From positions 1-39,971 of the forward strand of contig JAQGIF010000278.1 in assembly GCA_028291345.1 (NCBI GenBank): DNA of 39,971 bases. The letters are read 5' to 3'. The stretch is from Rhodospirillales bacterium. Its GTDB lineage: Bacteria > Pseudomonadota > Alphaproteobacteria > BOG-932 > Roseiterribacteraceae. The notes under the pieces are model-generated. The model worked only from the letters and a program-made list of their open reading frames with translations, made no database searches and had not been told where the DNA came from. Shown piece after piece: positions 6,603-31,892 of this stretch. Both the position numbers and the translations under genes were made by a program. The stretch's first letter is position 1. Each line of letters opens with the position of its first letter.

Positions 6603-8665
6603 CATATTCACTGGCCGTCGATATCGGCGGCACTTTCACGGATGTGGTCTTGCGCGGCGGCGACGGCGCTCTGACGACGGATAAAACCCTGACGACCCAT
6701 CACGACCTGCTGGAGGGCTTCTTCCGCGGTGTCGACCAGGTATTGAGCAAAGCTGGAATCTCGTCCATGGACGTCGACGGCGTCGTCGTCCATGCGACGA
6801 CGATTGTGACGAACGCACTCATCGAGCGCAAGGGATCACCTACCGCGCTGATCGCCACCAAGGGCTTCGGCGATGTCCTCTCAATCCGACACGAGCATCG
6901 CTACGAGATGTACGATCCGCAGATCGAATTCGCGGATCCGCTGATTTCGCACGATCTGACCTTCGAACTCGACGAGCGGATATTGGCGGACGGTGCGGTT
7001 CTGCGCGGCGTCGATACGACGGAAGTCGAAGCCTTGGCCAAAGCGATGCAGGCGAAAGGCGTCGTGTCGGTCGCAATTTGCCTGATCAACGGATTTCGCA
7101 ACCCAGTCAACGAGCAGGCCGTAGCGGCGATCTTGAGGCGCGTGGCTCCGGACCTCTACCTGTCATTGTCCTCCAGCGTCGCGCCGCAAATTCGTGAATA
7201 TCCGCGTACATCCACCACGGCGATCAACGCCTACACGGCGCCGATCACGGAACCCTATCTGCACGGCCTGACGCTCCGGCTTGCCGAGCGGCTCGTTCCC
7301 AACAAGCCGCTGATCATGCTGAGTTCGGGAGGCATCATCGGGGCCGAGATCGCCGGGCGCAATCCGGTCCGCATGATCGAAAGCGGCCCGGCCGCCGGAG
7401 CGTTGGCCGCTTCCTATTATGCCGAGCAGCTAGGTCTCGACCGCCTATTGTCATTCGACATGGGGGGGACCACCGCCAAGGCATGCCTGATCGAGAATCG
7501 CAAACCGCTGATCGCCAGCAGCTTCGAGGTCGATCGGATCTATCGTTTCCGCGAAGGGAGCGGGATGCCGCTCACGATCCCTTCGATCGACATGATCGAG
7601 ATCGGTGCCGGTGGCGGCAGCATCGCCAGCGTCGATGCCCTGGGCTTGTTGAAAGTCGGTCCGCGCAGCGCCGGCTCCGCGCCCGGACCGGCTTGTTATG
7701 GGCAAGGCGGAAAGGAGCCGACGGTTACCGACGCCGACTTGGCGTTGGGGTTGCTTGATGGTGACAATTTCCTGGGCGGCGATATGCGGCTCGACCAGCA
7801 AGCGGCGGAGACGGCGCTTTGGCGTCTAGGTGAAAGGCTTGGGACCGATATTGCGCAGACCGCGTCGGGAATATACCGGGTGGTGGCCGAAACCATGGCC
7901 GCTGCCGCCCGCACCCACGCAACCGACCGCGGTGTCGATTATCGAGGCCTGCCGCTTCTTGCCTTCGGCGGCGCTGGACCGGTGCATGCCTGCGCCGTCG
8001 GGGCCTTGCTGGAGAGTACGTCGGTCATCTTCCCGCCAAACGCGAGTGTCCTTTCGGCATTCGGGACATTGGTGACGTCGGTGCGTTTCGATCTGGTACG
8101 GAGCGCACCGGGCAAGCTCGATGTCTTGGACTGGGACGATGTCGACCGCCTGTTGAGCGAAATGGCCGGGGAGGGACTGGCGGCCTTGGCCGACGCCGGC
8201 TGCCCGCCGGACACGGTCAGCCTCATATTCGGAGCGGACCTGCGCTATTTGGGTCAACAAAACGAAGTCCCCATCACTTTCGAGCACGACCCGCGGGCGG
8301 GGAATGACGTGGAGATGATCCGGCGCATCTTCGAGGCGGCGTATCTGGCGCAATATGGCGTTAACCCTTCCCACGTGCCGATCGAGATCGTCAGTTGGCG
8401 GTTGACCGTTCGTGGTCCGGATATCGCGGTCAACAGCCCCACGACTCCGACTGGCGGATGGGGACAGCCAAAGGCGATGCGTACAATTCTGTTATGGCGC
8501 GAATTGGGCCCGACTGCGGTCTATGACCGAGGCAGCTTGGCGGCCGGACAGACCATGGCGGGGCCCGCGATTATCGAGGAGCGGGAAACGACGATCGTCG
8601 TGCCGCCGGGATGGGATGCCACTATCGACCCTCTCGGCTGCGTCATCGCCAAGCGGAGGGCATAA
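6599..8665 (+). CDS. hyuA: Hydantoinase/oxoprolinase-type ATP-dependent enzyme, subunit A
   Basis: ATPase subunit (688 residues) of the family that includes N-methylhydantoinase, 5-oxoprolinase, caprolactamase and acetone/acetophenone carboxylases. These enzymes use ATP to activate a lactam, hydantoin or ketone by phosphorylation. Visible hallmarks are the N-terminal phosphate-binding DIGGTFTD (8-15), ATTIVTNALIERKG (66-79), the second ASKHA-type motif FDMGGTTAK (286-294), IEIGAGGGSIA (about 333-343), and AFGGAGPVHA (455-464). The ATG at 6599 overlaps the iclR stop by four bases. The partner subunit follows after one base. The substrate cannot be told apart within the family from sequence alone, and the symbol is used in the family sense only. 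Confidence 0.92.
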   Translation: MTYSLAVDIGGTFTDVVLRGGDGALTTDKTLTTHHDLLEGFFRGVDQVLSKAGISSMDVDGVVVHATTIVTNALIERKGSPTALIATKGFGDVLSIRHEHRYEMYDPQIEFADPLISHDLTFELDERILADGAVLRGVDTTEVEALAKAMQAKGVVSVAICLINGFRNPVNEQAVAAILRRVAPDLYLSLSSSVAPQIREYPRTSTTAINAYTAPITEPYLHGLTLRLAERLVPNKPLIMLSSGGIIGAEIAGRNPVRMIESGPAAGALAASYYAEQLGLDRLLSFDMGGTTAKACLIENRKPLIASSFEVDRIYRFREGSGMPLTIPSIDMIEIGAGGGSIASVDALGLLKVGPRSAGSAPGPACYGQGGKEPTVTDADLALGLLDGDNFLGGDMRLDQQAAETALWRLGERLGTDIAQTASGIYRVVAETMAAAARTHATDRGVDYRGLPLLAFGGAGPVHACAVGALLESTSVIFPPNASVLSAFGTLVTSVRFDLVRSAPGKLDVLDWDDVDRLLSEMAGEGLAALADAGCPPDTVSLIFGADLRYLGQQNEVPITFEHDPRAGNDVEMIRRIFEAAYLAQYGVNPSHVPIEIVSWRLTVRGPDIAVNSPTTPTGGWGQPKAMRTILLWRELGPTAVYDRGSLAAGQTMAGPAIIEERETTIVVPPGWDATIDPLGCVIAKRRA

Positions 8666-17368: not shown

Positions 17369-17791
17369 TTATCGGCCGCTGCCGATCAGGCGCCTGCCGA
17401 GCAGGCGCAACACGATCCAGCGGCCGCGGACAAGTATTGGGTAGAGAAAGCGGGCAAGATGGGGGTGGCGGAACAGGGCCCTGTTCAGGCGGTTGAACAG
17501 GGTCCCGCTACTTCCGAGGATGGCGAGGATATTCATCGCGGCGGCGCCGTAGTAGAAGCGTCCATTGAATTTGACGGCCATGCCTTCATCCAGATCGAGC
17601 CCCTCGCGGCGAACCTCATTCAGGATCGGATGTGCCGATCTGGCATCGATCAAATGGACCTGCGCGGCCAGCTCGCGAATGCGATAAAGCAGAACATAGG
17701 AACTGCAGAACGGGCATTCTCCGTCATACACGACCCAGATATCGTCCCCCGTCCCGATATCACCCTTGGTATCGGGCTCAGTGGCTGACAT
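17369..17791 (-). CDS. DCC-family (DUF393) thiol-disulfide protein
   Basis: Short thioredoxin-like protein with the family signature VYDGECPFCSSYV: D23, C26 and C29 from the start used here, giving the D-x2-C-x2-C motif. Downstream it has the usual basic helical segment with HPHLARFLYPILVRGRW. I chose the ATG at 17791 because it just precedes the conserved core and overlaps the HTTM stop by 14 bases; ATGs at 17800 and 17821 are also possible. DCC proteins often occur beside or fused to HTTM membrane proteins, exactly as here. The pair probably does a redox step at the membrane, but no reaction is established for it. Confidence 0.82.
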   Translation of the reverse strand: MSATEPDTKGDIGTGDDIWVVYDGECPFCSSYVLLYRIRELAAQVHLIDARSAHPILNEVRREGLDLDEGMAVKFNGRFYYGAAAMNILAILGSSGTLFNRLNRALFRHPHLARFLYPILVRGRWIVLRLLGRRLIGSGR

Positions 17792-19400
17792 CGATTTCAT
17801 AATCGGTTCGTTTGCGGACATCGCGGACCAGCCGACCAGCCCGCAGACTGAGGCAAACGGATTCGACGCTATAACGGTAACCAACGATGTCGTTCATCGA
17901 GAGGCGATTGAACGCGCCGAACATCAGCGGGTTCGCAACCATGTGATGCGGGTAGAAGTAGAAAAGATTCGCGTCCTTCACGAGCGGTGTGCGCCGCATC
18001 GCGGCATCGCCTTCGCGGACCATGCTTTCGACCGTGTCGAGTGACACGCCGGTTTCCTGCTTGTGCAGAGTGTCCGGTCCGCACGACTGAGCGTCCTGCC
18101 AATCCTTGCGGTTATAGGTATTCCCGCCCAGCCGCATCGGGAAGTGATCGTCGGGTATAAACATCGCTGTCTGGCCGATCGAATAGGACATGATCCCGAA
18201 ATAGACTGGCGGAATCGGGACGATCCGTCCGTCACCCGTTTCCGCATAAAAACTCGGGCTTGCAAGCTTAGCGCCGTCCAGCCATCCAAGATGGCTGGTG
18301 TAGAAGAGGAAATGGGCGCCTAGTAACGCGATGAGACCGGTCGCCTTGACAAGCGGGGTCATCGCCTTGTCGTCGATCGCTCTCGCGGAGATGTAGATCA
18401 GCACATTGACGGCAATCCAGAAAAAGAAGAACGCCCCGAGCGTGCCCACGACCGCCACGTGGAATAGGTCGAATATCAATGTGAAGACCATCAACACGCG
18501 CCGATGCAGCAGGGCGAGGGGCGCGCAGATCTGGACGCCAAGTACGAACAGGTTCAGAGCGATACCTGCCGTGGTGATGGCGTCCCAACTGAACTGAACC
18601 AGCGAAGGCCAGGCAGCCAGCGGGTTGTTGCCCCGTTCGAGGCCAATCAGAATGGATGTCTGAGTCGGGTTGTGCAGGAGCCAGAAGAGTGGCTCCGACC
18701 CGCCGGCCTGGATCTTAGTCCAGCCGGAAATGAAGTAATTGCCAAAGTGGGCGCCGACCGCCCAGATCCAGATGAGCGTTGCCGTGGTTTTCTTCAGGTC
18801 CTCGAGATCAACCCATGAAGGTAGGAGATGACGCGCGCGACGGCCCGTCAGAATGACCGTGAACAACGCGCCGATCGCGACGAATTCGCCGATGTCCAGC
18901 ATGCTGAGATAGTCGGTCTCGGAGATGGGGACGCCGCTGACCCGGTTCAGCTGATGCCGAAATGCGACATAGTGGAAGAGAAGCGGGAGGGTAAAACTCG
19001 GCCGCCCCATGGCCACAAGGCCGGCGGCGATCGCGATGACGGTTCCTGCGCAGAAGAAAGCACCGTTCGCGCCGGCCACCATCGGTGTCGGGGCGTAAAG
19101 CAGCGTCGATCCGTCAAAGGCGACCTGGACCAGGACCACACCAGCTATGCCTCGCATCAGAGGCCGTAGCAAAGACGGAATGTCGCTGTATCTCAGGTCG
19201 GAGAGAGTCCAGGCGCCGACGATGGCGACGACATCCAGCGCCAGACAGTTTTCCGGCGAACTGGTGGCAATAGCCAGCAGAGCGGTGCGCAATCCGGCAT
19301 AGATGGCGAGCGCCCCGAGGAGCACCAATATCGGAACGGCGTGGCTGGATAGCCGCGGTGCTGGCGCGACGGATGGCAGGATTGTGATGCCGGTTGTCAT
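17778..19400 (-). CDS. HTTM-type multipass membrane protein
   Basis: A 540-residue polytopic membrane protein with about ten hydrophobic segments, resembling the HTTM domain shared with vitamin K-dependent gamma-carboxylase. Typical stretches are HFGNYFISGWTKI, WLLHNPTQTSIL, FDLFHVAVVGTLGAFFFFW and a C-terminal soluble part with NTYNRKDW. The frame is open upstream to 19772, but the ATG at 19400 is preferred: it gives a short N-terminus directly before the first membrane helix, and the upstream 124 codons look non-coding. It heads the HTTM-DCC-GT2-acyltransferase operon and is divergent from the flippase. A role in modifying the polysaccharide or its carrier lipid is guesswork from location. 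Confidence 0.8.
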   Translation of the reverse strand: MTTGITILPSVAPAPRLSSHAVPILVLLGALAIYAGLRTALLAIATSSPENCLALDVVAIVGAWTLSDLRYSDIPSLLRPLMRGIAGVVLVQVAFDGSTLLYAPTPMVAGANGAFFCAGTVIAIAAGLVAMGRPSFTLPLLFHYVAFRHQLNRVSGVPISETDYLSMLDIGEFVAIGALFTVILTGRRARHLLPSWVDLEDLKKTTATLIWIWAVGAHFGNYFISGWTKIQAGGSEPLFWLLHNPTQTSILIGLERGNNPLAAWPSLVQFSWDAITTAGIALNLFVLGVQICAPLALLHRRVLMVFTLIFDLFHVAVVGTLGAFFFFWIAVNVLIYISARAIDDKAMTPLVKATGLIALLGAHFLFYTSHLGWLDGAKLASPSFYAETGDGRIVPIPPVYFGIMSYSIGQTAMFIPDDHFPMRLGGNTYNRKDWQDAQSCGPDTLHKQETGVSLDTVESMVREGDAAMRRTPLVKDANLFYFYPHHMVANPLMFGAFNRLSMNDIVGYRYSVESVCLSLRAGRLVRDVRKRTDYEIDVSH

Positions 19401-19745
19401 TTGCGAAGGTCGTCTTTGCGAAATCTTACCGAGCTCTCGGCTTGTCCATTCAGAAACCGCATGAAGACCGTGGGCTGAATCAAAGAATTTTCTTGAAAGT
19501 AGAGAAAATCGATAGCGTGAGCGCCTCGCATTTTTAGGCACCGTTTGACTGGATGAATTCTGGTGCGCGGCTTTCCCGGCTGTCGGCAAAGCTTCGTGCA
19601 TGACACTATTTAGGGCGGTTTTTGTTTCTGCCGGTGTGATATTGCTGTGACGTGTGGTCCCGCGCGATATCTGCCGTTGCAAGGGCTTAGGGCGCGCGGC
19701 TAGCTGTATGGATAGGCATTCCAGCCGCTGATCGAGAGACTCCGC
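19401..19745. other. Divergent promoter region between HTTM operon and flippase
   Basis: This 345-base stretch has no gene. It holds the TGTGAT-N5-TGTGAC tandem box at 19635-19651 and a TTTGCGAA direct repeat at 19400-19407 and 19415-19422, right at the HTTM start. Clear -35/-10 pairs were not identified with confidence. An open frame covers most of it on the minus strand but lacks coding character. Confidence 0.5.
19635..19651 (+). promoter_or_regulatory. Tandem TGTGAY box, copy 2
   Basis: TGTGAT-ATTGC-TGTGAC is two direct half-sites with an 11-base period. It matches the copy at 28855-28871 at 13 of 17 positions. The layout resembles binding sites of OmpR/PhoB-type regulators, which dock head-to-tail on one face of DNA. 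It lies 95 bases before the flippase start used here and about 235 before the HTTM start. Confidence 0.55.
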
Positions 19746-21140
19746 TTGAAGCCAACGGCACCGCATTCCCAAGCTTCCGTTTTAAGGGCGGACGCGACCG
19801 CTTCGCCTGCGCAAATGATCGGTTTAGGCCCGTTCTCGAAGTTCCGTGCGCGGCTGGCTGGGCGGCCCTTCCTGCAGAACGTTTCGATCATGCTGAGCGG
19901 CGCGGTCGCCGGCCAGATGGTAAGCCTTTTGTTGTCTCCCGTGCTGACACGGCTCTATTCACCGCAGCAATTCGGTGTTCTCAGCGTCTATACGGCGCTT
20001 CTGACGATTCTGGTTGTCATCGCTTCGCTGCGTTACGAGCTTACGATTCCGATGGCCACAACCGAAGAGGACGCTGTCAATCTGGTCGCACTGTGCGCCT
20101 GCGTCCTTTTCGGAACGACGATATTGATCGGGGTCGCCGCCTATTCATTTCCAGAAGAGACGCTTGAGGCGCTTTGGCCCACACCGATCAATTCCACCTA
20201 TGTCACCTCATATCGCGGACTATTCATACTTGGTTTCCTCTGCCTCGGCGGATACTACATCGCGCTTTACCTCGGAACGCGCCAATCGGCTTTTAGTGCG
20301 ATTGCCCGAACACGTTTTTATCAGGGTGTCGTCGGACCGACTTCGCAGATCGGTCTCGCATTGCTTGGTGCAGGGTCACCCGGCTTACTGATCGGGTCGA
20401 TCCTCGGCCAATCGGCCGGTACATTCGGTTTGTTCCATCGGCTATTGCGGTCTCCCGGAGCTTTGAGAGGAAGGGTCTCTTGGCAAAAAATGATCGTTCT
20501 GGCCAAGCGTTTTCGCCGCTTTCCGCTGATCGCGAGTTGGGCCGCGTTAATCGATTCGGTGGGGGGGAGTCAACTTCTCTATCTGCTCGTTTCCGTCGCC
20601 TATTCTGCCAAGATCGCCGGCTTCATTTTCCTGGCTGAGCGGGTAGTTGCGCGGCCACTATCCCTGGTCGGAACCTCGATCCTACAGGTCTTCATGGGGG
20701 AGGCCGGGAAGACTGTCGCCGCCGATCCGAAAAGGCTAAGGACGCGGTTCTATCAGGTGGTCAGCAGGCAGTTTTGTCTCGCGCTAGGCTGGATCCTTGT
20801 CAGCAATGTTATCGCGGCGCTGGTCTTTCCGAAGGTGTTCGGCCCGCAGTGGAGCGATGCCGTTACTTATCTGCAGGCCATGAGCATCGGCTATCTCGCC
20901 CAGGCGATCGTGCTGCCGGTGTTTCACACGCTTCAAATTCTTGAAAAGCAGACCCTGGCTGCAACCTGGCAGGTGGGACGGCTGTTATGTGTTGTGACGA
21001 CCTTCACCTTGGCGTCGCGTTTCGACATCGATGCACCAATGACGATTTTCTGCTACAGCGCCGTCCAGGCGGTTAGTTGCCTGGTTCTCCTGGCTCTTAT
21101 GGCGAAATCGATCGAGAAACTGCAGGAGGTAACCGCATGA
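19746..21140 (+). CDS. Wzx-like polysaccharide flippase
   Basis: A 464-residue membrane protein of the MOP/polysaccharide-synthase family that moves lipid-linked repeat units across the inner membrane. There are about twelve hydrophobic helices. The opening element LQNVSIMLSGAVAGQMVSLLLSPVLTRLYSPQQFGVLSVY is typical in layout (helix, then the conserved TRLYSPQQFG). The start is uncertain: TTG 19746 has a GAGAG site seven bases upstream, while ATG 19815 would shorten the cytoplasmic tail by 23 residues and has no clear site. The stop overlaps the small cysteine-rich gene (ATGA). It is the only flippase in the locus, so it probably exports the glycan built by the neighbouring transferases. Confidence 0.88.
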   Translation: MKPTAPHSQASVLRADATASPAQMIGLGPFSKFRARLAGRPFLQNVSIMLSGAVAGQMVSLLLSPVLTRLYSPQQFGVLSVYTALLTILVVIASLRYELTIPMATTEEDAVNLVALCACVLFGTTILIGVAAYSFPEETLEALWPTPINSTYVTSYRGLFILGFLCLGGYYIALYLGTRQSAFSAIARTRFYQGVVGPTSQIGLALLGAGSPGLLIGSILGQSAGTFGLFHRLLRSPGALRGRVSWQKMIVLAKRFRRFPLIASWAALIDSVGGSQLLYLLVSVAYSAKIAGFIFLAERVVARPLSLVGTSILQVFMGEAGKTVAADPKRLRTRFYQVVSRQFCLALGWILVSNVIAALVFPKVFGPQWSDAVTYLQAMSIGYLAQAIVLPVFHTLQILEKQTLAATWQVGRLLCVVTTFTLASRFDIDAPMTIFCYSAVQAVSCLVLLALMAKSIEKLQEVTA

Positions 21141-21505
21141 ATTACGGGCGCTTCGTTCTCCCGAGCTTGCTCATGGCCATGGTGGCCGGACAGGCCCTGG
21201 CTTCACCGTTTTGCGTTGAATTGACGGGCATTCCCTTGCAATGCCTCTATGCCGATCCGGCCATGTGTCAGCATGAAGCCGACCGACTCGGCGGGATTTG
21301 CTCCGCCAACCCTGCTGAATTCACGACGCCCGCGGGCGGCTCTCAATTCTGCGTAGTCGAATCCGGCAATGTCGCCACCTGTGCCTATGCCGACCGGGGC
21401 AGCTGTTCGCGCGATGGTCGTCAAAAGGCCGGCGCCTGCATCGCGGCCACTCCAGCCGCGCCGCCCAAGGCGACCGATCCTTACGAGGTCAAGCGGCCCT
21501 ATTGA
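21137..21505 (+). CDS. Small secreted protein with duplicated four-cysteine motif
   Basis: A 122-residue protein of unknown function. A signal peptide (about 1-22, cleavage near ALA/SP) indicates export. The mature part carries two copies of one pattern, FCV-x-x-x-x-G?-x-x-x-C-x-YAD-x-x-x-C-x10-C. The cysteines are at 26, 36, 44, 55 and again at 72, 82, 90, 101, so spacing is identical and the period is 46 residues. Two disulfides per repeat are likely in the periplasm. The tail is Pro/Ala-rich and ends KRPY. Translation is coupled to the flippase (ATGA overlap, GGAGG site at 21125-21129). Its 3' end overlaps the convergent beta-helix gene by seven bases. Confidence 0.82.
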   Translation: MNYGRFVLPSLLMAMVAGQALASPFCVELTGIPLQCLYADPAMCQHEADRLGGICSANPAEFTTPAGGSQFCVVESGNVATCAYADRGSCSRDGRQKAGACIAATPAAPPKATDPYEVKRPY

Positions 21506-23427
21506 GTTGGCGGCGCTTTCGGTTCGGCTATGAGCTGGGGCACGAAATGGCCCAATCCTCGCTCGGGAAAGCCGGACGCTTGAAGCGAAACCGGCGCTTC
21601 AGCGGCATCATGCTCAAGGTAAACGCGATATTGGTTGCCGGTCTGTAGCACTTCCTCGGCGAAGGTTGCGGATAGAAAGCTGCCGGCATTGTGGAACGCC
21701 GGGCCGGCTTCTCCCTTCGGGTCGCGTACCATGTAAACCAGTCCGCCGAAGATATCGGTCCGGCCTCCATCCAAATTATCGACGATCGTCGATACACCCT
21801 CTGTCTTGAGCCCTAGAATCGACAGGGGACTCCCCTTATTCAGTATCCTGATACCTCCGCCCTCGGTATCGAATTGCTCGGCGGAAACCAGGTGCGGGCC
21901 GGCAATCTGCATTCGTCCGCAGCAGACATCTTCTAGAAAGACACGCCCGCCGCCCTCCTTCCGGTCGAGCAGCGTGACGCCGGCCGAAACGATGTCGCGA
22001 AGTACGACATCCCGACTGCCCGAGACCTGGACGGCCAATTGGGCTCCCTGATCGGTATTGTCGAAGGCGAGTCCTTCGATGGAAACCGGTTCGCCGCCCG
22101 AGGCAATTCTCAGCATTCCGCCGGTGCGCGAAAAGCCAGGCAGGCGATTTGCCGCCACCCGGATTGTCGAGCTCATGCCGACAATCCGGTGCACGCTCGC
22201 AGGAATGTCGATCGCGTCATCGATCGCATAGGTTCCATGCGGCAGATAGATTGTTGCCGCTCCGGATGCGAAGGCATGGCGAAGCCCCTCGGTGACGGCT
22301 TGCGTGGTATCCGGGCCGGCGCCGTAATGCGCGGCATTGACCCAATGCTCCAGAGGCGTTGCCGCAGAGGCAGGGCTTTCCGCCGGCTTCGGAAGCCAAG
22401 ATGGTAGCGCAAAGGGTTTTCTCGGTTTCCCCGCTTGGAAAATTCCGTTGGGGGCGTCGGATCCCGCGCCTTTCGTGGCGTGTTCGTCCGACTGAAGGTT
22501 GCGAACGACGATCAGCCCGGCGTTATCGAAGGCCGCCGCGACGTCGGTTCGGTCTTTCGGCAAATGGAATTCGCCACCATCGATGGCGACGAGCCCTTCG
22601 CGTCCGGCGTTAATGATGGCTGGGGCTGATCCTTGAATGTTGAGGTCGCGGACCGACAAGACGTTCTGGTCGTTGCGGATGGAGGCAGTACGCTGATCCG
22701 ATAAACGGATGTGAGTGAGTGTCAGGCCATATTCGGTTTGTGCAGTGGCGATGCCAAGGTCGAACCCAAGAACTGTCAGATTCTGGATGAGAGCTGGGCC
22801 GGGCCATTTTCGCGACATGGACAGGCCGACCGCACCGCTATCCGATGGAGCGCGCAATGTCACATTGCGGATTGCGCCGATATTGTTGGCGAGATAATCG
22901 ATGCCGATCGCGCCGGGATTGCCGTGGCCGACATCGATGGTCAGGTCCTGGACAAAATTCATATAAGCGTCGTTGCCTTCGCCTAGGCGGGGATAATCCT
23001 TGCCGCCGCTGGTCGGCGTGCCGTCGATCTGTTTGGAGGTTGTGAAGACTACAGCCCGAGGCTGGTGTGGGTCGCCGAAACCGGGTGCATGGTCCGACAG
23101 ACGAATGATGGTATGAGCCTGTGACTGTCCGACCAGATAGAGGCCGGAGCCGAACCGTCCGTCCGCGTATCGCTTCAGCAACGTGCCCGACACAATATAG
23201 TTTCCATCGGGCAGATAAACTGGACGATCTTGCCAAAAAACTTTGCCGGTATCGCCTCCGCTGGCGGCGATAGCCTTTAGAAGTGCTTCAGTATCATCAT
23301 GCTGGCCATCACCTCGAGCGCCATAATCTCGAACGTCGATCTGGCCTGCATCGGCTGGAAGGCCTCCGGCTCTGCTGGCCGGGGCAACCAGGACCGACAG
23401 CGCGATGACGCAACAAGCGAGGCGCAT
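21499..23427 (-). CDS. Secreted parallel beta-helix protein (pectate-lyase-3 type)
   Basis: A 642-residue exported protein with a signal peptide (cleavage near SRA/GG, residue 20). Two right-handed beta-helix domains are visible. The first opens with IDVRDYGARGDGQHDDTEALL and the second with HYGAGPDTTQAVTEGLRHA followed by TIYLPHGTYAIDD, each the hallmark of the pectate-lyase-3/GH55-like superfamily. Such proteins lyse, hydrolyse, epimerise or bind polysaccharides. It is the last gene of the six-gene export operon, 10 bases after the GT4 gene. Cleavage or tailoring of the exported glycan, as other exopolysaccharide loci do with their own lyases, is the likely role. Catalytic residues cannot be assigned from sequence alone. 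Confidence 0.85.
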   Translation of the reverse strand: MRLACCVIALSVLVAPASRAGGLPADAGQIDVRDYGARGDGQHDDTEALLKAIAASGGDTGKVFWQDRPVYLPDGNYIVSGTLLKRYADGRFGSGLYLVGQSQAHTIIRLSDHAPGFGDPHQPRAVVFTTSKQIDGTPTSGGKDYPRLGEGNDAYMNFVQDLTIDVGHGNPGAIGIDYLANNIGAIRNVTLRAPSDSGAVGLSMSRKWPGPALIQNLTVLGFDLGIATAQTEYGLTLTHIRLSDQRTASIRNDQNVLSVRDLNIQGSAPAIINAGREGLVAIDGGEFHLPKDRTDVAAAFDNAGLIVVRNLQSDEHATKGAGSDAPNGIFQAGKPRKPFALPSWLPKPAESPASAATPLEHWVNAAHYGAGPDTTQAVTEGLRHAFASGAATIYLPHGTYAIDDAIDIPASVHRIVGMSSTIRVAANRLPGFSRTGGMLRIASGGEPVSIEGLAFDNTDQGAQLAVQVSGSRDVVLRDIVSAGVTLLDRKEGGGRVFLEDVCCGRMQIAGPHLVSAEQFDTEGGGIRILNKGSPLSILGLKTEGVSTIVDNLDGGRTDIFGGLVYMVRDPKGEAGPAFHNAGSFLSATFAEEVLQTGNQYRVYLEHDAAEAPVSLQASGFPERGLGHFVPQLIAEPKAPPTQ

Positions 23428-23437
23428 GGTCGAAGCG

Positions 23438-24673
23438 TCACACCGCTATCGCAAGGATGGGTTGCGGCATCGTAAGATCGCGATAGTGCATTTCATATTG
23501 GTCGGCCATCCGCTTTACCGTGTAGCGCTCGGATAGCGCTTTTGTGTGCGCCTCCATCTCGGGAAGCCCGTGTTTCGGTTGCGCAAGGCGGGTCATCATC
23601 AGCGCCAACGCCTCCGAGTCGCCGGGCGGAAAAAGCGCGCCGGTTCGGCTGGATTCGATGAATTCCGGGATCGCGCCGATATCGCTACCGACCACGCCCA
23701 GTCCGTAGGCAGCGGCTTCGACGATCGCGACGGGCGCATTCTCGTACCAGAGCGACGGCAGCAGAAGCCAACCGGAATCGGCCAGTGCGCGGAGCTTTTC
23801 ATCGCCGGATATGTATCCCAGATAGGTTATACGCTGATCGTTCGAGGACGCTGACCGGACCCGTTCCTCCAGCGGTCCCTTTCCGGCGATAGTCACCCGG
23901 ATCGGCGAATCGTCTGGCAAATGTGCTACTGCCTGGATGACAACATCAACCCCCTTCTCGACTGTCAGGCGGCTCAGCATAAGAAATCTGTGGCGGCTGT
24001 CGGGGTGCCGCATCCTGCGGATGCGTTCGATATCGTCGGGTTGTGGAATTCCGTTGGCAACGACCGCCGAGCGCGCTGCGAGCAGGCCGGCATCGATATG
24101 TTTGCTCAGTAAGAATTGCGACGGGCTGGTGAATAGGTCGACATAGCGTGTCGTCGCCAAATGCCAATTTCGATAAATGCGGCATTTTGCCGACGGTCGG
24201 ACGCACAATTTCCAATCTCCCGTCAGCATGAAGGCGCGGGGGCATAACAGATGGTAGTCATGGGCTGTGTGGATCACCGGAATGCCCTGGCATCTGGCTC
24301 GACGCCAGATGGATGCCGATATGCCGTCAATCACATGGGTATGCATTACGTCGGGGCGGGCAGTGTTGAGGATCGCTTTCAGCCGGCTGCCAGCTTTGCG
24401 ATTCCAGGCATCGCGTGCATGCCACAACCATTTCTTGATGCCCGGCTCGCGGTCTCGATCGAATGACCAGTACAGGTTGGGTGGAAAGAACCGGATCACT
24501 TCGACGCCATTTCGCATCTCGGTCGGATAGGGCTCCATATCCGGTCCGCATGTCGATACGACCGTGACGCGATGACCGCGCCTGACCAACTCCTCGCATA
24601 GGTAAGAAACGATAAGTTCGGCGCCTCCCACGGCAATCGGGGGATAGATATTGTTCGCGACAAGGATATGCAT
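23438..24673 (-). CDS. GT4-family glycosyltransferase
   Basis: A 411-residue GT-B retaining transferase, probably adding a sugar to the repeat unit on its lipid carrier. The N-terminal half has NNIYPPIAVGGAELIVSYL and THVIDGIS. A Cys-containing AHDYHLLCPRAF resembles the LHDFFAACP of the fusion protein elsewhere in the locus. The C-terminal half has SRLTVEKGVDVVIQA, AGKGPLEERV and the E-x7-E motif YENAPVAIVEAAAYG, which binds the sugar-nucleotide donor. It lies 18 bases after the BY-kinase-like gene. Donor and linkage are unknown. Confidence 0.9.
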   Translation of the reverse strand: MHILVANNIYPPIAVGGAELIVSYLCEELVRRGHRVTVVSTCGPDMEPYPTEMRNGVEVIRFFPPNLYWSFDRDREPGIKKWLWHARDAWNRKAGSRLKAILNTARPDVMHTHVIDGISASIWRRARCQGIPVIHTAHDYHLLCPRAFMLTGDWKLCVRPSAKCRIYRNWHLATTRYVDLFTSPSQFLLSKHIDAGLLAARSAVVANGIPQPDDIERIRRMRHPDSRHRFLMLSRLTVEKGVDVVIQAVAHLPDDSPIRVTIAGKGPLEERVRSASSNDQRITYLGYISGDEKLRALADSGWLLLPSLWYENAPVAIVEAAAYGLGVVGSDIGAIPEFIESSRTGALFPPGDSEALALMMTRLAQPKHGLPEMEAHTKALSERYTVKRMADQYEMHYRDLTMPQPILAIAV

Positions 24674-24691
24674 GGAGTATTCGTCCGCTGG

Positions 24692-25405
24692 CTAAAGGAG
24701 GCGCGCTAGCCAGCGCGGCAGGTAATTGCGGCGGCCGCCCAGTACTGCGCCGATGATGGGCTGGCCTGACCGAGACAGGATCTCGCGCAAACGGATCGCC
24801 GAGAATCGGCGCGTTTGCTCGGCCTCGATTACGATAATATGCCCATCGACATGCCGCGCCAGCACCGTTCCAAGAGGGTCGCAATCGAACGCTGGCGGCG
24901 CGATCATGATCATGTCGAAATACAGGGACAATTCGTTTAGATGCCGGTCGATCTCGGCGGCGGATATCACCGTTCCGGCTTGGTTGCGCCAGCTATGCAG
25001 ATTTCCCAGATAGGCTTCATGTCCTTCTATTTTCACGAACTCCTGGTTCCAGTCCGTGAAGTTGAAGTTTCCGTTTTTGCCCGATCGACCTTCGTTGGCG
25101 TCCGAAACGGCGTACGATGGCATGAAGGAAGTCAGCAGGAGGATACGCCTCCCCAAAACGCTGGCGCCGACCCAGGCCAAATCGCGGGCAATCTGCTCGC
25201 TGCCGTCGCTATGTGTCATACTGGCGAAGAGGATCGCCAAGCGGCGGCGGTGGCCAAGCGTGGCTTCGATATTAACGTACATCTCCACAAGGTCGGCGGT
25301 CGGAAGGTCATTCGACGGGGTAAACTCAACTTCCCGAACCGGACGTCCCGGTGAAATGGAGCTTTGGTCGGCAATCTCGCCAACCGCGAAACTCTGGTTT
25401 CTCAT
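24692..25405 (-). CDS. Degenerate BY-kinase-like (CpsD/CapB family) protein
   Basis: A 237-residue protein with the fold and position of bacterial tyrosine kinases that pair with Wzz proteins, but without their catalytic motifs. The Walker A slot (about 61-72) reads ASMTHSDGSEQI and lacks the GKS/T lysine. The Walker A-prime slot (about 87-99) reads RRILLLTSFMPSY without its aspartate. The Walker B slot (about 162-171) reads YFDMIMIAPP, with Ala replacing the key Asp. There is no C-terminal tyrosine cluster. It probably acts as a structural or regulatory partner of the Wzz protein rather than a kinase. It overlaps the wzz gene by four bases (ATGA) and has a GGAGG site, so the two are coupled. 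Confidence 0.8.
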   Translation of the reverse strand: MRNQSFAVGEIADQSSISPGRPVREVEFTPSNDLPTADLVEMYVNIEATLGHRRRLAILFASMTHSDGSEQIARDLAWVGASVLGRRILLLTSFMPSYAVSDANEGRSGKNGNFNFTDWNQEFVKIEGHEAYLGNLHSWRNQAGTVISAAEIDRHLNELSLYFDMIMIAPPAFDCDPLGTVLARHVDGHIIVIEAEQTRRFSAIRLREILSRSGQPIIGAVLGGRRNYLPRWLARLL

Positions 25406-26883
25406 TGGGGTCCTCCGTAGGTTAGCAGGCCCCGCGTCGTGGGCTGCTGATAGCGTTCGAAGCTGGCGAGGACTGGAACGTCCAGCAAGAATGCCACCTG
25501 CTCCGCTGTTGTAAACCGGTCGTTCCTCCCCTCCAGAGCAAGAGCGGTGCCGATCGCCAGGATGGCGCCGCCAAAAACGCAGGCCAGCATGGTGATAAGC
25601 TTGCGCGGACGTGCGGTTTTGTAGGGGAAGGTCGGTTGGCTGATCAAAGTCGCAGGCGAGATGCGCTGCCGGTTCAGACTGTCTTTGACGCGTGCGTCCT
25701 CATATTGGGTCGACAAGGACCTATATGTGTCTTCCGCGATCTGCTGTTCACGGACGAGATCGTTATAGTTTCCGCGATTCCGCCGCAAATCGCTCAGCCG
25801 GTGATCGATCGTGTTCAGCTGTTCAGTTAGGATACGGACCGGTTCCGTGTTGCTTTGCGCGTCCGCCGACGTTCGCAGGTAATCGGTCTGTAAAGTCTGG
25901 TAAACCGAGTTCGCGTTGCTTGCAGACCGGCTGTTCAACTCGGCGCGTCGCTTCTTGAGGTCGGCCTCGGCGGTTCCGATCGCGGCATTGAGGGAGGCCA
26001 TGGCCGGGCTGCTTGGCGAGTAAGTGGCCAGCATCTGGCTCTGTTTGGCATGAAGATCGGCGAGGCGTGACTCGGCGTCATCGACCGAGCGATATTTTTC
26101 GCCGCCGGCCGATTCCGGCAATGTCGCCGGAACGTTTTTGATCAGGCGGTCAATATCGTTCTGCCGGTGCTGCGCCTGCTGAAGGTTCGCATCGGCATTT
26201 CGCAGGCTCGTGTCGACGTCGCCGCGCTGTTTCAGGAGGTCGGCGGTTTCCTCATCGAAATCCGTGATCTGCCACTGGTCCTTGAACTGCTCGAGGGCCG
26301 CCTGGGCGCGCGCCAGACGACTGCCCGCATCCTTGACCTCGGAACCGATGAAGCCGCTTTGCGGATTCTGATAGACCAGCGTTTGCTGTGCGACATACAG
26401 GTCGATCAGCTTCTGAACGATGTCATGAGCCAGCTTCTTGTCGGGGTGCAGGAACGAAACCGTGATGATGTTGTCCTGCGCGCCGACATCAACGGACAGC
26501 TTGCCGAGGAACCTATTCACGGCTTCGTCCACCTCCGTCCATCGCGTCGGCGGATTGGCGGCAATGTCGGGATAGACAGCGGTCAGGCCGAATGCCTCGA
26601 TCGTCGCCTGGGCAAGATCGTGACTGCTCAATATTGCGGCATGCGACAAAACGATTTCACGCCGGTCGGAGGGTGTCATCTCCGAAGTCGGCGTCCGTGC
26701 CACCTCAGGCACGGACCGGTCGCCGAACCGGACGATCAGTTCGGCGACGGACTCATATTTGGGCGTCGCGATCAACAGGTAGGCCAGTCCGCACAGCACA
26801 ACGCCGAAGAATATGCCGAGCACCGCCTTCTTGTGCTTGAACAATGTCGTCAGCAGTCCGTAAGGCATCAATTCTCCATTCAT
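25402..26883 (-). CDS. Wzz/GumC-type polysaccharide co-polymerase
   Basis: A 493-residue inner-membrane chain-length or export co-factor. An N-terminal helix (about 18-38, KKAVLGIFFGVVLCGLAYLL) is followed by the Wzz domain, a long periplasmic coiled coil (about 190-390), a GNVR-like stretch ending FPYKTARPRK, and a C-terminal helix (about 435-455). A short cytoplasmic tail contains the TAEQVAFLLDVPVLASF element often fused to a kinase domain, here supplied by the next gene. GGAG sites precede both ATG 26883 and ATG 26868. It lies 36 bases after the OPX gene. It probably joins the inner-membrane machinery to the outer-membrane OPX channel. Confidence 0.9.
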   Translation of the reverse strand: MNGELMPYGLLTTLFKHKKAVLGIFFGVVLCGLAYLLIATPKYESVAELIVRFGDRSVPEVARTPTSEMTPSDRREIVLSHAAILSSHDLAQATIEAFGLTAVYPDIAANPPTRWTEVDEAVNRFLGKLSVDVGAQDNIITVSFLHPDKKLAHDIVQKLIDLYVAQQTLVYQNPQSGFIGSEVKDAGSRLARAQAALEQFKDQWQITDFDEETADLLKQRGDVDTSLRNADANLQQAQHRQNDIDRLIKNVPATLPESAGGEKYRSVDDAESRLADLHAKQSQMLATYSPSSPAMASLNAAIGTAEADLKKRRAELNSRSASNANSVYQTLQTDYLRTSADAQSNTEPVRILTEQLNTIDHRLSDLRRNRGNYNDLVREQQIAEDTYRSLSTQYEDARVKDSLNRQRISPATLISQPTFPYKTARPRKLITMLACVFGGAILAIGTALALEGRNDRFTTAEQVAFLLDVPVLASFERYQQPTTRGLLTYGGPQ

Positions 26884-26919
26884 ATCGGTGCTCCGCCTGG
26901 AACCACGCCGATGCCTCGG

Positions 26920-27669
26920 CTAAGGGGTCGTGGGGCTAGTAACCACGGGGTTGACGTTGTAGGAGAAGCCCCAGCTGACCGGCACGAATTGCTGGACGAA
27001 CTGATTCCAATACACGTAGGCGTCATAAATGCCCGTCCGCGGTACATAGACGACGTCATATTGCGCCAGCCTGGCGTCCGCTTCCGGATTACGCCCCGAG
27101 ATGATCGACATGTAGTCGACCGAAAATGCCTGCGGGACATCGCCCGGGCCGCGGCGCAGCACGAAGACGCGACTACGATCCGCGCTGAGCCTGACACCTC
27201 CAGCGCGGGCCACGGCCTGACTGATGGTCAAATTCGGACCCACCGTTATGAACTCACCCGGGGTCGCCACCTCGCCGCTGACATAGACACGATTCGGGGC
27301 AAAACTGTGAACCACCACCGATATCTGGGGATTGTTGAGGTTAGACCGGTATTGCCTTCTCAGTTCGGCGGATATTTCCGTCGGAGTTAGGTTGTAGGCA
27401 GCGATATCTTCCGCCACGGCCGTCGAAATCATCCCGTCCGGCCGGACGGTCACCTCATCGTTCAACTCGGGATTTTGGAAGAGCTTGATATCCAGCACAT
27501 CCCCGACTTGCACTTTGTACGGGGTTAGGGTTGCGGGAACGCCGCTCATCGGTGGTGGGATCGCGGGAAGTGGCGGCATGTTGCTCGCGGTCGTGCCGCA
27601 TGCGCTCAACGATAGGCCGATAAATACCGCGCCGATAGAAGCCGGCCGAAAGTTTGCGATGTGTGTCAT
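26920..27669 (-). CDS. OPX outer-membrane polysaccharide export lipoprotein
   Basis: A 249-residue Wza/GumB-type export protein. The signal sequence ends in a lipobox LSAC with lipidated C24. The poly-export domain runs from YKVQVGDVLDI to VVVHSF, with VTVRPDGMIS, and one SLBB domain follows (VYVSGEVATPGEF). It is shorter than E. coli Wza and nearer GumB in size. The ATG at 27669 is chosen because GGGGAG lies seven bases upstream and the product begins right before the lipoprotein signal. An earlier frame start at 27762 is poorer. It lies 47 bases after the sugar transferase gene and 36 before the Wzz gene. Confidence 0.92.
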   Translation of the reverse strand: MTHIANFRPASIGAVFIGLSLSACGTTASNMPPLPAIPPPMSGVPATLTPYKVQVGDVLDIKLFQNPELNDEVTVRPDGMISTAVAEDIAAYNLTPTEISAELRRQYRSNLNNPQISVVVHSFAPNRVYVSGEVATPGEFITVGPNLTISQAVARAGGVRLSADRSRVFVLRRGPGDVPQAFSVDYMSIISGRNPEADARLAQYDVVYVPRTGIYDAYVYWNQFVQQFVPVSWGFSYNVNPVVTSPTTP

Positions 27670-27716
27670 CGCTGCACTCCCCATTTTATTGTTGGACTGG
27701 AAGGAGAGGAGGACGC

Positions 27717-28484
27717 TCAATATGCGCCTCTTCGTTGGATCACGACAAATGCGGTTCTCCATAACAGTTTAACGTCGGTCGCGAGCGAGCAGCTTTTGGC
27801 ATAATGCTGGTCAAGGCGGACGCGCCCCCTGTAATCCACATCGCTGCGGCCGCTGACCTGCCACAATCCGGTGATGCCGGGGCGGCAACGCATGTAATCG
27901 CGGAACGCCGCGCCGTAACGCCGAACTTCGTCGGCGACAATCGGGCGGGGGCCGACCAAGCTCATTTCGCCCTTGATGACATTGAACAGTTGCGGCAGTT
28001 CATCCAGGCTGGTCGTCCGAAGGAACTGGCCGATTTTGGTGATGCGGGGGTCGCGCTTTAGCTTGAAGGTGGCTTCCCATTCGGCTTTTGCCTCGGGATC
28101 GGTGGTCAGCACCTGTTTCAGCACGCTATCGGCGTTCATCACCATTGTCCGGAATTTCCAGCAGACAAAGGTCCGACCGTCCTGGCCGATCCTGCGGTGA
28201 CCAAACAGAACGGGGCCGCCGTCGCGTTGCGCTAAGAAGGCTATCAGGAGCAATATTGGCGAAAGGCCTACGATAAGAAGCATCCCGAACATGAAATCGA
28301 ACATGCGCTTGCTAAGCTGCTGCGCCGGCGCGATATCGATATTGCCCGCGCGTTCGACGAAGCAACGATCTACGGCGGCGGCATGAAGCCTCGACCAGTT
28401 GTAACTATCGGCCGGCATATGTCGGGTAGCAGTTCGGGCTGTAAAATTCGGCCCTTGAAAGTTCGCATATGTGGGAGACTGCAT
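27717..28484 (-). CDS. Priming sugar-phosphate transferase (ExoY/WcaJ C-terminal type)
   Basis: A 255-residue polyprenyl-phosphate sugar-1-phosphate transferase that starts the repeat unit on undecaprenyl phosphate. A re-entrant or single membrane helix is at about 65-85 (FGMLLIVGLSPILLLIAFL). The catalytic core has HRRIGQDGRTFVCWKFRTM, the Asp-Glu pair D161-E162 in SLDELPQLFNV, VGPRPIV around 177-183, and RPGITGLWQVSGR. It lacks the extra N-terminal helices of full WcaJ. The ATG at 28484 is preferred over a longer frame from 28733, whose added residues look non-conserved and low in hydrophobicity. It heads the six-gene operon and is divergent from the two-component unit. Confidence 0.9.
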   Translation of the reverse strand: MQSPTYANFQGPNFTARTATRHMPADSYNWSRLHAAAVDRCFVERAGNIDIAPAQQLSKRMFDFMFGMLLIVGLSPILLLIAFLAQRDGGPVLFGHRRIGQDGRTFVCWKFRTMVMNADSVLKQVLTTDPEAKAEWEATFKLKRDPRITKIGQFLRTTSLDELPQLFNVIKGEMSLVGPRPIVADEVRRYGAAFRDYMRCRPGITGLWQVSGRSDVDYRGRVRLDQHYAKSCSLATDVKLLWRTAFVVIQRRGAY

Positions 28485-29118
28485 CGGCGTTTTCTTCCAG
28501 ATGGGAGAGGTGACGCTTTGGAACCGGACCGCTGCTTTCCGTCTTGGAAGAACAACAAGCCGCTTCCATCGCGATGCAAGGTTAACAAGCACCGCGGCCT
28601 CCGGTGTGTGTCCGTTCTGTGGCTTTGTGTCCGGTGTAGAAATGCAGGGTCGCGCGAGTAATTGGGTTACTCCGGAAAATACTGGAATTTCGTGGCGTAA
28701 ATCGCCCTCTCGTTCCGTTAATAAGGTTGGCATCTGTTAGATAAATAGAGATCATATAAGCGCTGCGCGAACCAACGGGGAGGTTGGGGAAAATTTTATT
28801 AATAAAGTAATAAAGTGCAGGGTTTTTCGTTCCTGAAGAAATGCTAACTTGTGATGTGACAAAACTGTGACCAGAGGGTATCAAGCATCGCCAAAATGCC
28901 GCAACGCACAAGAATCTTTAGGATTTTAGAGGCAAACCGGGTACCCTCAGCGAAGGTTAGGTTATTTGATGCTTCGATTTCTGGAACCTTAGGGCGAGAG
29001 CGAGTGTGTTGTCGTTATCGCGATGTCGTTGTCTTCGTCTCGTGAGATCGTCCGGGCGACTTTTACGACCTCGGGCGATCGGGGGTAATACGGGGAAAGG
29101 GAAAGGTGTGGTTAGGCA
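28485..29118. other. Divergent promoter region upstream of sugar transferase and signalling operon
   Basis: About 630 bases without a credible gene. The middle is AT-rich compared with its surroundings and includes a tandem TAATAAAG-TAATAAAG at 28800-28815. The TGTGAC tandem box lies at 28855-28871. The minus-strand frame from 28733 crosses part of it but looks non-coding. The long leader on either side could hold transcription-start control for the exopolysaccharide operon. Confidence 0.55.
28855..28871 (+). promoter_or_regulatory. Tandem TGTGAC box, copy 1
   Basis: TGTGAC-AAAAC-TGTGAC is two identical direct half-sites 11 bases apart; a third TGTGA precedes at 28850. The spacing and the A-rich linker recall the Pho box, although each half has TGTGAC where the classical box has TGTCAT. 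It lies between the sugar transferase and the operon that encodes an OmpR/PhoB-type regulator, so the local regulator or PhoB is the best candidate to bind it. Confidence 0.6.
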
Positions 29119-29607
29119 GTGCGGATTGTTCGCTTTCGTTTTTCGGGGCTGTTGCTAGCGGGCATGGTGTCCGCCTGCACGCATGTGAGCAAGACCAATC
29201 CAAACGATGCATCACTTACAAGGACGTCCCCTGCTCGGGCGGAGACATCCGGCTCATCCGATGTCGCGACCCCGGCGCATGTAAAGCGCCCGCGCATCGC
29301 GGCACCGAGTGCTTCCGTCGCGACCGTTTCTCGCTCGCAGATCGACGAGTTGATAGGCCTGGATGAAACGGGGATCAGGTCGGCGTTCGGGGTTCCAACG
29401 TCTGAAGAGGATCAGGCTCCGACCAAGCGATGGGTCTATCGCGTACGGCAGTGCACAATGAATGTAACCTTTTATCCCGAAGTCGAGACCAGACAATTTC
29501 ACGCTCTAAACTACGAGGTAAATAGCGATGACGGTTCAGCAAAACGACAGCAGACTTGTGTCGCCGAATTCTCTTCCAGACTTCCCGCGAAATCTGTCGC
29601 AAAATAG
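29119..29607 (+). CDS. Small lipoprotein upstream of a two-component system
   Basis: A 162-residue exported lipoprotein. The signal segment FSGLLLAGMVSAC ends in a V-S-A-C lipobox with C20. A low-complexity Ser/Thr/Ala region follows, and then a compact domain with IDELIGLDETGIRSAFGVP and WVYRVRQCTMNVTFYPE, an arrangement reminiscent of SmpA/BamE-like folds. The GTG at 29119 gives the proper signal; no strong ribosome-binding site is seen. Its last 80 bases overlap the response-regulator gene. It may sense or relay an envelope signal to the kinase, but this is inferred from the operon. Confidence 0.75.
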   Translation: MRIVRFRFSGLLLAGMVSACTHVSKTNPNDASLTRTSPARAETSGSSDVATPAHVKRPRIAAPSASVATVSRSQIDELIGLDETGIRSAFGVPTSEEDQAPTKRWVYRVRQCTMNVTFYPEVETRQFHALNYEVNSDDGSAKRQQTCVAEFSSRLPAKSVAK

Positions 29608-30379
29608 TTTTCTTGCGCAGAATGGTAGTTCGCCTGATACCATCAGAGCAATACTTGTCGATGATGACGATTTCTATCGAGAAGCCATCGCGACGGAACT
29701 CGGTTATCTTGGCTTTTCTGTAACCTCGTTCTCCTCGGGCGAACCGATGCTGGCGCATTTTGCGCAGAACGCCGATGCGGAGGTTATCGTTCTCGACTGG
29801 CGGCTCCAGAACGGGCTGGGCATCGATCTTCTCCCGCTCCTGCATGAGCGCGGAATCCACATGCCGGTTGTTTTTTTAACGGGAATGCCGGCGGTCGCCG
29901 CCGAATATACCGCGCTCGACCTTGGTGCAGTGGATTTCGTCGATAAGGCTCGTGGCACCGCAATCCTGGCCAAACGCCTTCGGCTGATCGTTCAGTCGTC
30001 TCGCGGCCAGCCGCAAAACGATGCAGCTTCATCGACGTCCACCGAACCAGCCCAATGCGGAAAACTAAAGCTGCACCCCGACATCGCACGCGCTTATTGG
30101 AACGGGATCGATGTCGAACTGACGCTTACCGAGTTCAAGATCGTGTACCTGCTGGTATCCCGTGCCGGTGAATACGTGACATATCGCTCTGTCTATGACT
30201 GCGTTCGTTACACGGGTTTCGTGGCTGGTAATGGCGAAGACGGATTCCGAACCAATGTACGTTCATCGATCAAGCGTATCCGCAATAAATTCCGACAACT
30301 TGATGACGGATTCTCCGACATCGAAAACTATCCTGCCTTTGGGTATAGATGGCGCGGAGCGCCGTCTGGCGCCGCGTAG
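29528..30379 (+). CDS. OmpR/PhoB-type response regulator
   Basis: A 283-residue DNA-binding regulator. A 38-residue leader precedes the receiver domain, which has an acidic cluster D45-D48, phospho-acceptor D90 (VLDWRL), T118 (FLTG) and K140 (FVDKARG). A Ser/Thr linker leads to a C-terminal winged helix containing LTLTEFKIVYLLVSRAGEYVTYR and SSIKRIRNKFRQ, with a final FGYRWRG. The ATG at 29528 has a GAGG site and overlaps the lipoprotein gene by 80 bases. The kinase gene begins inside its 3' end. It is the natural candidate for the two tandem TGTGAY boxes in the exopolysaccharide promoters. Confidence 0.9.
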   Translation: MTVQQNDSRLVSPNSLPDFPRNLSQNSFLAQNGSSPDTIRAILVDDDDFYREAIATELGYLGFSVTSFSSGEPMLAHFAQNADAEVIVLDWRLQNGLGIDLLPLLHERGIHMPVVFLTGMPAVAAEYTALDLGAVDFVDKARGTAILAKRLRLIVQSSRGQPQNDAASSTSTEPAQCGKLKLHPDIARAYWNGIDVELTLTEFKIVYLLVSRAGEYVTYRSVYDCVRYTGFVAGNGEDGFRTNVRSSIKRIRNKFRQLDDGFSDIENYPAFGYRWRGAPSGAA

Positions 30380-31892
30380 GCTATTTCGCGCTCTTCGGCG
30401 ATTCGCCTCATCGCTGACGGTAAAGTTCATCGTCCTTGTCGCGATTTTTTTCGTGCTGCCTTTTCTGGTCTACAACCAGTTCGACAAAGCAGATACGAAT
30501 CTCCGCAGTTTCGTAACGCGGAGCATCCAGCATAAAAGCTGGCTGATAGCCCAGGCGCTTCGGCCGACATTAGACCGTCCGGATCGATTGCCGGACGGTG
30601 AACTTGCCGCGCAACTTGCGAAGTTCGACGGCGATGGCACCAGGCTCCAACTCATGTTGAAGCCTGCCAAGGGTGCCGTCGGCCATTTCTATTATGTTGC
30701 GTCCTCGCCGCCGGTCCAGTCCGACCAGATCGACGCCGAGCTCAGTAGCCTGGAAGGTCACGGCATATTGGATCGGCTGTCGCGAAGCTGCAGCGACGAC
30801 ACGCCGATCGATGTGCAATATCAGAGGCCGGGCGGCCAAGACCAGATTCTGACATCCCTCGTCCCGATCCAGACTCGGTGGGGATGTTGGATACTTGTCT
30901 CGTCGCACACCACATCGGAGTTTTTGTATACAGCAGTCGCGCGCCCGCTATGGACTACGCCCGAAAGCAGGTTGGCTGCGCTGTTTTACCTTGCGGGAGC
31001 CTTGCTGGCGATGCTCGTCGTGATCGGCGTATCGCGTAGCCTGCGCCATTTTCGCAAGGTTGCTGCGGAAATTCGTCAAGGCCGGACGCGTCACTCCTCA
31101 TTCGCATCACAGGAGGTCGCTCCCGAACTCAGCAGTGTGGCGGCAGACTTCGATGCGTTTGCGATGGATCTGCAAAATGTCGCGCGCGACATCAGGCAGG
31201 CTGCGGAGGACAATGCCCATTCATTCAAGGCGCCCGTCGCGACGGTCGAAGCATCCCTTGAGACCGTTCGGCGCAGCCTTCCACCAACCGATAATACGGC
31301 CCATCGCGCGTTCGAATTAATCGGCTACTCGGTGGACCGCCTGAAGGCTCTGATCTCTGCCTCACAGCAACTCGATAACGTTACCGCCGACCTTATCGAG
31401 GCACCTCGGCACCGAGTTAATCTGGCGAGCGTCGTATCCGAAGTTCTTGGGCGCTTTCACGACATTCTGGCCGAGCGCGAAATTACGATCTTACAAAAGC
31501 TGGACGAGAAGCTGTTCGTGACCGGCAGCAAGCAGGTGCTCGATGTGACGATCGAGAATATCTTCGACAACGCAATCAGCTTCTCGCCGCAGAAGAGCGT
31601 CATCACCGTCTCGCTCGACAAAGCGGCCCAGATCGCCGATCTGCGAATCGACGATCAAGGTCCCGGGATCGACCCGAAGAAGATCGATCGTATTTTCGAC
31701 CGCTACTTCTCGCTCCGCCCCGTCAGGCTATCGGACGAGGCGGGCGACGAAACGCTCCCCCATGCGGGTCTCGGCTTGTGGATCGTCCGACGAAACGTCG
31801 AGGCGCTGCATGGAACAGTGACCGCGACCAATCTAGATCGTGCGGGCCTGAGAATCCGAGTCATGCTGCCGATCAGCCGAAAATGGCATTGA
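30303..31892 (+). CDS. Membrane sensor histidine kinase
   Basis: A 529-residue kinase partner of the upstream regulator. TM1 is about 41-58 and TM2 about 224-243, enclosing a periplasmic sensor of about 165 residues with a Cys pair (C163, C195). The dimerisation region has H306 in AEDNAHSFKAPVATVEASL, an AHSxKxP form of the H-box. The ATP-binding domain shows the N box ENIFDNAISFSP, DQGPGID and HAGLGLWIVRRNVE. The ATG at 30303 overlaps the regulator by 77 bases; TTG 30339 is an alternative. The periplasmic signal is unknown. Overlaps suggest the lipoprotein, regulator and kinase are made from one transcript. Confidence 0.88.
   Translation: MTDSPTSKTILPLGIDGAERRLAPRRLFRALRRFASSLTVKFIVLVAIFFVLPFLVYNQFDKADTNLRSFVTRSIQHKSWLIAQALRPTLDRPDRLPDGELAAQLAKFDGDGTRLQLMLKPAKGAVGHFYYVASSPPVQSDQIDAELSSLEGHGILDRLSRSCSDDTPIDVQYQRPGGQDQILTSLVPIQTRWGCWILVSSHTTSEFLYTAVARPLWTTPESRLAALFYLAGALLAMLVVIGVSRSLRHFRKVAAEIRQGRTRHSSFASQEVAPELSSVAADFDAFAMDLQNVARDIRQAAEDNAHSFKAPVATVEASLETVRRSLPPTDNTAHRAFELIGYSVDRLKALISASQQLDNVTADLIEAPRHRVNLASVVSEVLGRFHDILAEREITILQKLDEKLFVTGSKQVLDVTIENIFDNAISFSPQKSVITVSLDKAAQIADLRIDDQGPGIDPKKIDRIFDRYFSLRPVRLSDEAGDETLPHAGLGLWIVRRNVEALHGTVTATNLDRAGLRIRVMLPISRKWH

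Follow-up and report, generated by a model that had tools for sequence, protein, structure and literature searches.

Beside exopolysaccharide (EPS) genes of a Rhodospirillales bacterium lies a direct repeat, TGTGAY-N5-TGTGAC, that is a real, conserved cis-regulatory element and exceeds chance expectation. It probably marks a multi-locus EPS regulon of an uncharacterised OmpR/PhoB-type two-component system. The stretch analysed is contig JAQGIF010000278.1 (assembly GCA_028291345.1; 39,971 nucleotides), called here the window, and positions refer to it unless a contig is named. From sequence comparisons, it seems likely that the boxes are binding sites of the response regulator predicted at 29528-30379. 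The initial annotation had described two boxes that agree at 13 of 17 positions and share an 11-base period; both sequences, their coordinates and this agreement were reproduced exactly. A third site, at 28607-28623, was absent from that annotation and was picked out by a matrix built from the collected sites. The box consensus may be taken as TGTGAY-MANNC-TGTGRC.

19635-19651, plus strand: box TGTGATATTGCTGTGAC (TGTGAT-ATTGC-TGTGAC), between the minus-strand 664-amino-acid unit and the plus-strand flippase; exact counterparts in genomes UR115, G177 and G452 and on contig C155 of the same genome
28855-28871, plus strand: box TGTGACAAAACTGTGAC (TGTGAC-AAAAC-TGTGAC), probable site of the lipoprotein-regulator-kinase operon; similar sites 5' of many orthologous operons
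28607-28623, plus strand: third box TGTGTCCGTTCTGTGGC, site in the promoter of the priming sugar transferase; matrix score 13.2; same place and orientation in 6/6 clusters

Exact boxes are restricted to EPS loci in the genome

Taken by itself, the window makes a modest case: six matches with up to two mismatches are near the 3.3 expected by chance. The case is strong in counts by pattern search over the 5.63-Mb genome, with the reversed pattern as control. Exact matches to TGTGAY-N5-TGTGAC number five, against none for the reverse; the window and contig C155 hold two of these sites each and contig C263 one, and all five are in EPS loci. The signal fades when one mismatch is allowed (14 sites versus 7 for the control). 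The regulon is thus not only local, as had been proposed initially, because three of the exact sites sit in EPS loci on other contigs.

Contig C155 carries a second EPS cluster, whose priming transferase, chain-length protein and flippase are 66%, 73% and 70% identical to their paralogues in the window, and contig C263 encodes a related glycosyltransferase. Both contigs (loci L015 and L016, respectively) end inside near-identical glycosyltransferase copies, so it was probably the duplication of EPS genes that fragmented the assembly. On C263 a transposase-like open reading frame (ORF) was recognised by eye from its translation at 877-2091, minus strand.

The boxes are kept in EPS promoters of other families

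The EPS cluster of the window is also found in UR115 (plasmid CP131057.1), G177 and G452, and partly in G455. In the first three, an exact box stands 5' of the flippase amid diverged flanks; G177 and G452 are Azospirillaceae, a family other than that of the genome studied here. Counted from the sequences, the box lies 68-95 nucleotides upstream of the flippase in the orthologues. No exact box was found 5' of the flippase of G455, which is on a separate contig. Together with the sugar-transferase promoters described below, where the box is kept in 6/6 clusters, the flippase promoters of UR115, G177 and G452 bear out the conservation that the initial annotation had named as a check.

19746-21140, plus strand: flippase, likely target; Pfam Polysacc_synt_3
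17778-19772, minus strand: 664-amino-acid ORF, likely target on this strand; matches no family in Pfam or NCBIfam; start probably near 19400

Further EPS promoters carry the element. G177 has an additional one with TGTGATCAGTCTGTGGC, and in G188, G205, G444 and G442 the divergent region of a glycosyltransferase beside the regulator gene contains boxes, often two with opposite orientations. With gene calls in these foreign loci made by a simple longest-ORF rule, eight of nine regulator-linked EPS segments have an intergenic box with no more than one mismatch; the box of the ninth (L091) is inside an over-extended ORF. Five control sugar-transferase clusters unlinked to the regulator contained no intergenic box. 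Moreover, orthologues of the flippase were confined to regulator-bearing genomes among the 17 genomes tested.

The priming sugar transferase has its own box

The 28607 site falls within the longest ORF of the sugar transferase; alignment of starts, however, puts the true start probably near 28484.

27717-28733, minus strand: priming sugar transferase, likely target; Pfam Bac_transf
28582-28588, minus strand: TTGTTAA, possible -10 element, 18 nucleotides beyond box 28607 toward the sugar transferase; aligned in five promoters
19605-19613, minus strand: CTAAATAGT, possible -10 element beyond box 19635 toward the minus-strand unit; aligned with UR115 and G177

An opposite-strand box is present 205-245 nucleotides upstream of the conserved W-x-R-L-H-A codons in all six clusters (the window, C155, UR115, G177, G452 and G455). 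These sugar-transferase boxes are a variant of the pattern, held at a near-constant distance and oriented against transcription. Since the sugar transferase thus has a conserved box of its own, box 28855 fits better as the site of the lipoprotein-regulator-kinase operon, at whose orthologues similar sites occur, more often with this same orientation. The earlier picture, in which two divergent regions drive four EPS and signalling units, was therefore right in pairing 28855 with 19635 as sequences but incomplete in its anatomy. An extra, overlapping TGTGA precedes box 28855 (28850-28860, TGTGATGTGAC) as a third, partial half-site with a 5-base offset.

The boxes are associated with a lipoprotein-regulator-kinase operon

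The candidate binder is encoded in an operon spanning 29119-31892.

29119-29607, plus strand: lipo162, small protein that begins with a lipobox-like sequence; opens the operon; matches no family in Pfam or NCBIfam; in many genomes a relative stands before the regulator gene
29528-30379, plus strand: response regulator (receiver plus winged helix), proposed binder of the boxes; Pfam Response_reg, Trans_reg_C
30195-31892, plus strand: partner sensor histidine kinase; Pfam HATPase_c; listed ORF start probably too early

The regulator has the OmpR/PhoB-type architecture, a receiver (Response_reg, 59.7 bits, cut-off 30.2) followed by a winged helix (Trans_reg_C, 28.3 bits, cut-off 26.2), with its partner kinase adjacent; the kinase had no HisKA match in the Pfam search. 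The gene order lipoprotein-regulator-kinase is widely kept among genomes. Among 385 Alphaproteobacteria, 60 were found to carry an orthologue of the regulator, as were 72 of the 82 genomes in the family of G177, which includes Azospirillum. Searched against the named genomes, the regulator protein brought up one weak relative only. The recognition helix is near-invariant across 59 orthologues, as would be expected if they share one site. The helix, R-x-N-V-R-x-x-I-K-R-I-R-x-K-F, and the ending F-G-Y-R-W could define a subfamily.

We then compared the pattern TGTGAC-N5-TGTGRC, adjusted after sites had been seen, with the 1.1 kb 5' of 35 non-redundant regulator orthologues. Exact matches were found in 2 regions, matches with up to one mismatch in 7 and with up to two mismatches in 18, counts never reached by 500 permuted patterns in the same regions (means of 0.006, 0.26 and 4.3, respectively). 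Other spacings gave far fewer matches. The unmodified pattern of the initial annotation yielded nine intergenic sites (up to one mismatch) in 52 regulator-linked loci versus 0.4 for permuted patterns, none of 400 permutations reaching nine. The coding part of these loci, ten times larger, held seven sites. Boxes thus concentrate in intergenic DNA, which is 9% of the sequence, and the idea survives the annotation's second refuting condition, equal frequency in coding sequence.

A link is also apparent at the level of whole genomes: the consensus TGTGAYMWNNCTGTGRC occurs in 13/60 regulator-bearing genomes versus 11/325 others among the 385 Alphaproteobacteria (p = 6e-6; the genomes are related, so this and the following p values are optimistic). 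Corrected for genome size, per megabase and with the genome studied here left out, the ratio is 4.3 (p = 2e-4), and among genomes of at least 3.2 Mb the association holds at p = 0.007. Reversed-pattern controls in the same comparison gave 0 and 6.

A proposed multi-locus EPS regulon

Both the operon and its likely targets have conserved direct-repeat sites in tandem, spaced by about one helical turn. In the mechanism that we propose, a dimer of the phosphorylated regulator would bind head-to-tail to the two half-sites, one helical turn apart. It would thereby act on the priming sugar transferase, the flippase, the unit divergent from the flippase and additional EPS loci in other parts of the genome, and it would probably also control its own lipoprotein-regulator-kinase operon. 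We infer the identity of the binder, the tandem-dimer mode and the choice between activation and repression. On the last point the promoters offer a hint: TTGTTAA or TTGTTAT stands 18-19 nucleotides after the box, toward the gene, in five sugar-transferase promoters compared side by side, and a conserved AT-rich element lies 18-20 nucleotides past the box in both the sugar-transferase and the flippase-divergent promoter sets. Such spacing would fit an overlap of the box with the -35 region and activation by the regulator; a sigma-70 consensus scan gave no match at the conserved -10-like elements. At box 19635 either direction of transcription is possible. The box at the regulator operon is oriented the other way, so that autoregulation there may have either sign.

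More broadly, we consider it somewhat probable that lipoprotein, regulator and kinase form an uncharacterised system that is widespread and separate from ChvI, CenR and PhoB, reads a TGTGRY-N5-TGTGRC code of its own, moves together with EPS clusters from one alphaproteobacterial family to another and brings several EPS loci of one genome under joint control. The kind of system is known, but this member appears to be undescribed in the open-licence literature searched, where the combination of TGTGAC, response regulator and exopolysaccharide retrieved no paper. For a two-component system present in 60/385 alphaproteobacterial genomes and in 72/82 genomes of the family of Azospirillum, the analysis now offers a DNA site together with a candidate regulator and target genes, and it makes EPS control in these soil and root bacteria directly testable. 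If the proposal is true, related regulators of one class share an 11-base layout and differ in base preferences.

Alternative explanations for the boxes

Besides the relatedness of the genomes, several observations weigh against the local regulator as the reader of the boxes. The sites on C155 and C263 are partly paralogous, so the five exact sites are not independent; about half of the regulator orthologues have no clear upstream box, and Azospirillum promoters are weak. In genome G001, of the same genus, a box stands beside a glycosyltransferase although no regulator was detected. In an unsupervised expectation-maximization motif search of the DNA upstream of the regulator, the box did not come first, because lipoprotein coding sequence dominated. 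Finally, the 11-base register of the boxes is shared by CenR, another regulator. CenR is an envelope regulator conserved in Alphaproteobacteria. Its site in Rhodobacter sphaeroides, where it is paired with CenK, is the direct repeat TGA-N8-TGA (for example TGACGCAGCTGTGAA), and its targets are envelope genes (PMC9275681). As reader of the boxes it would place the EPS genes and the local operon under general envelope control. On a matrix of CenR sites box 28855 scores 14.7, and many boxes score within the CenR range; several EPS boxes, however, score low. Base preferences also differ: CenR has a first half-site T[CG][AG]C as opposed to TGTGAY, the boxes have G in 24/24 against C or G in CenR sites, and T in 14/24 against C in 28/31. 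CenR sites mostly run with transcription, whereas the sugar-transferase boxes run against it, and nearly all tolQ-type promoters examined, a CenR calibration that makes a weak test, were without such a site. Nor would a near-universal regulator predict the association of the boxes with the local one. We thus regard CenR as an unlikely reader of these boxes.

The canonical ChvI, whose operon is on contig C28 of the same genome, is a similar but still less likely candidate. Of the paralogues that the local regulator has there it is the closest (30% identity), EPS is under the control of the ChvI system in rhizobia, and the Sinorhizobium meliloti ChvI site, GCC-N8-GCC as quoted in PMC9731502, resembles the opposite strand of the box with the same 11-base spacing. 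Yet the intergenic DNA of C28 holds no box at up to two mismatches, the recognition helices differ at several residues (RTNVRSSIKRIRNKF in the local regulator, RTIDSHVKRVRRKF in ChvI), and ChvI is widely conserved while the boxes track the local regulator. ChvG-ChvI (ExoS-ChvI, BvrS-BvrR) is like the local system in pairing an OmpR/PhoB-type regulator with a partner kinase in a family that controls EPS; the local system is unlike it in its lipoprotein-like first gene, its recognition helix and its kinase without HisKA match. That the local regulator might itself be the canonical ChvI was rejected, as the order chvI-chvG-hprK-HPr is found on C28 with another regulator, whose recognition helix differs. 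The neighbouring regulator, the prime candidate of the initial annotation, thus remains the best one by enrichment at orthologues and by genome association, but CenR and ChvI are still compatible by motif shape.

PhoB, which would tie EPS to phosphate starvation, is very improbable. Boxes and Pho box have a common tandem 11-base layout, and the annotation had called the boxes Pho-box-like with a different half-site: the G at the fourth base of TGTGAY, seen in 24/24 collected boxes, takes the place of a C in the Pho half-site CTGTCAT. The canonical Pho box with one mismatch allowed has two sites in the genome, neither on the window, C155 or C263, and the local regulator scores 53 bits against TIGR02154 (PhoB; cut-off 296). 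On these grounds, half-site base, genome scan and family score, PhoB was rejected as main candidate. Least credible of all is that the similarity reflects chance, or shared descent of duplicated EPS loci devoid of regulatory function. Three of the five sites in this genome do belong to loci that are paralogues of one another or of the window, and the loose window matches are near chance; but the boxes persist while their flanks diverged, permutation, reversal and spacing controls are far lower, and sites are conserved in other families.

Related systems and additional sites

A lead to a possibly related system is EmmABC, in which a small exported protein accompanies a kinase and a regulator. 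In Sinorhizobium meliloti this gene set is associated with EPS production, according to a title cited in PMC10659215.

Boxes were also seen in two genomes in which no regulator was detected. Locus L195 (G001:C174) has an exact box, TGTGATCGTGTTGTGAC, at 7393-7409 by a glycosyltransferase 55% identical to the window's; no flippase was detected in that genome either. Locus L197 (G011:C600) has a box at 2424-2440 upstream of PqqD/transglutaminase-like and glutamine-amidotransferase genes, and a weaker box at 5996.

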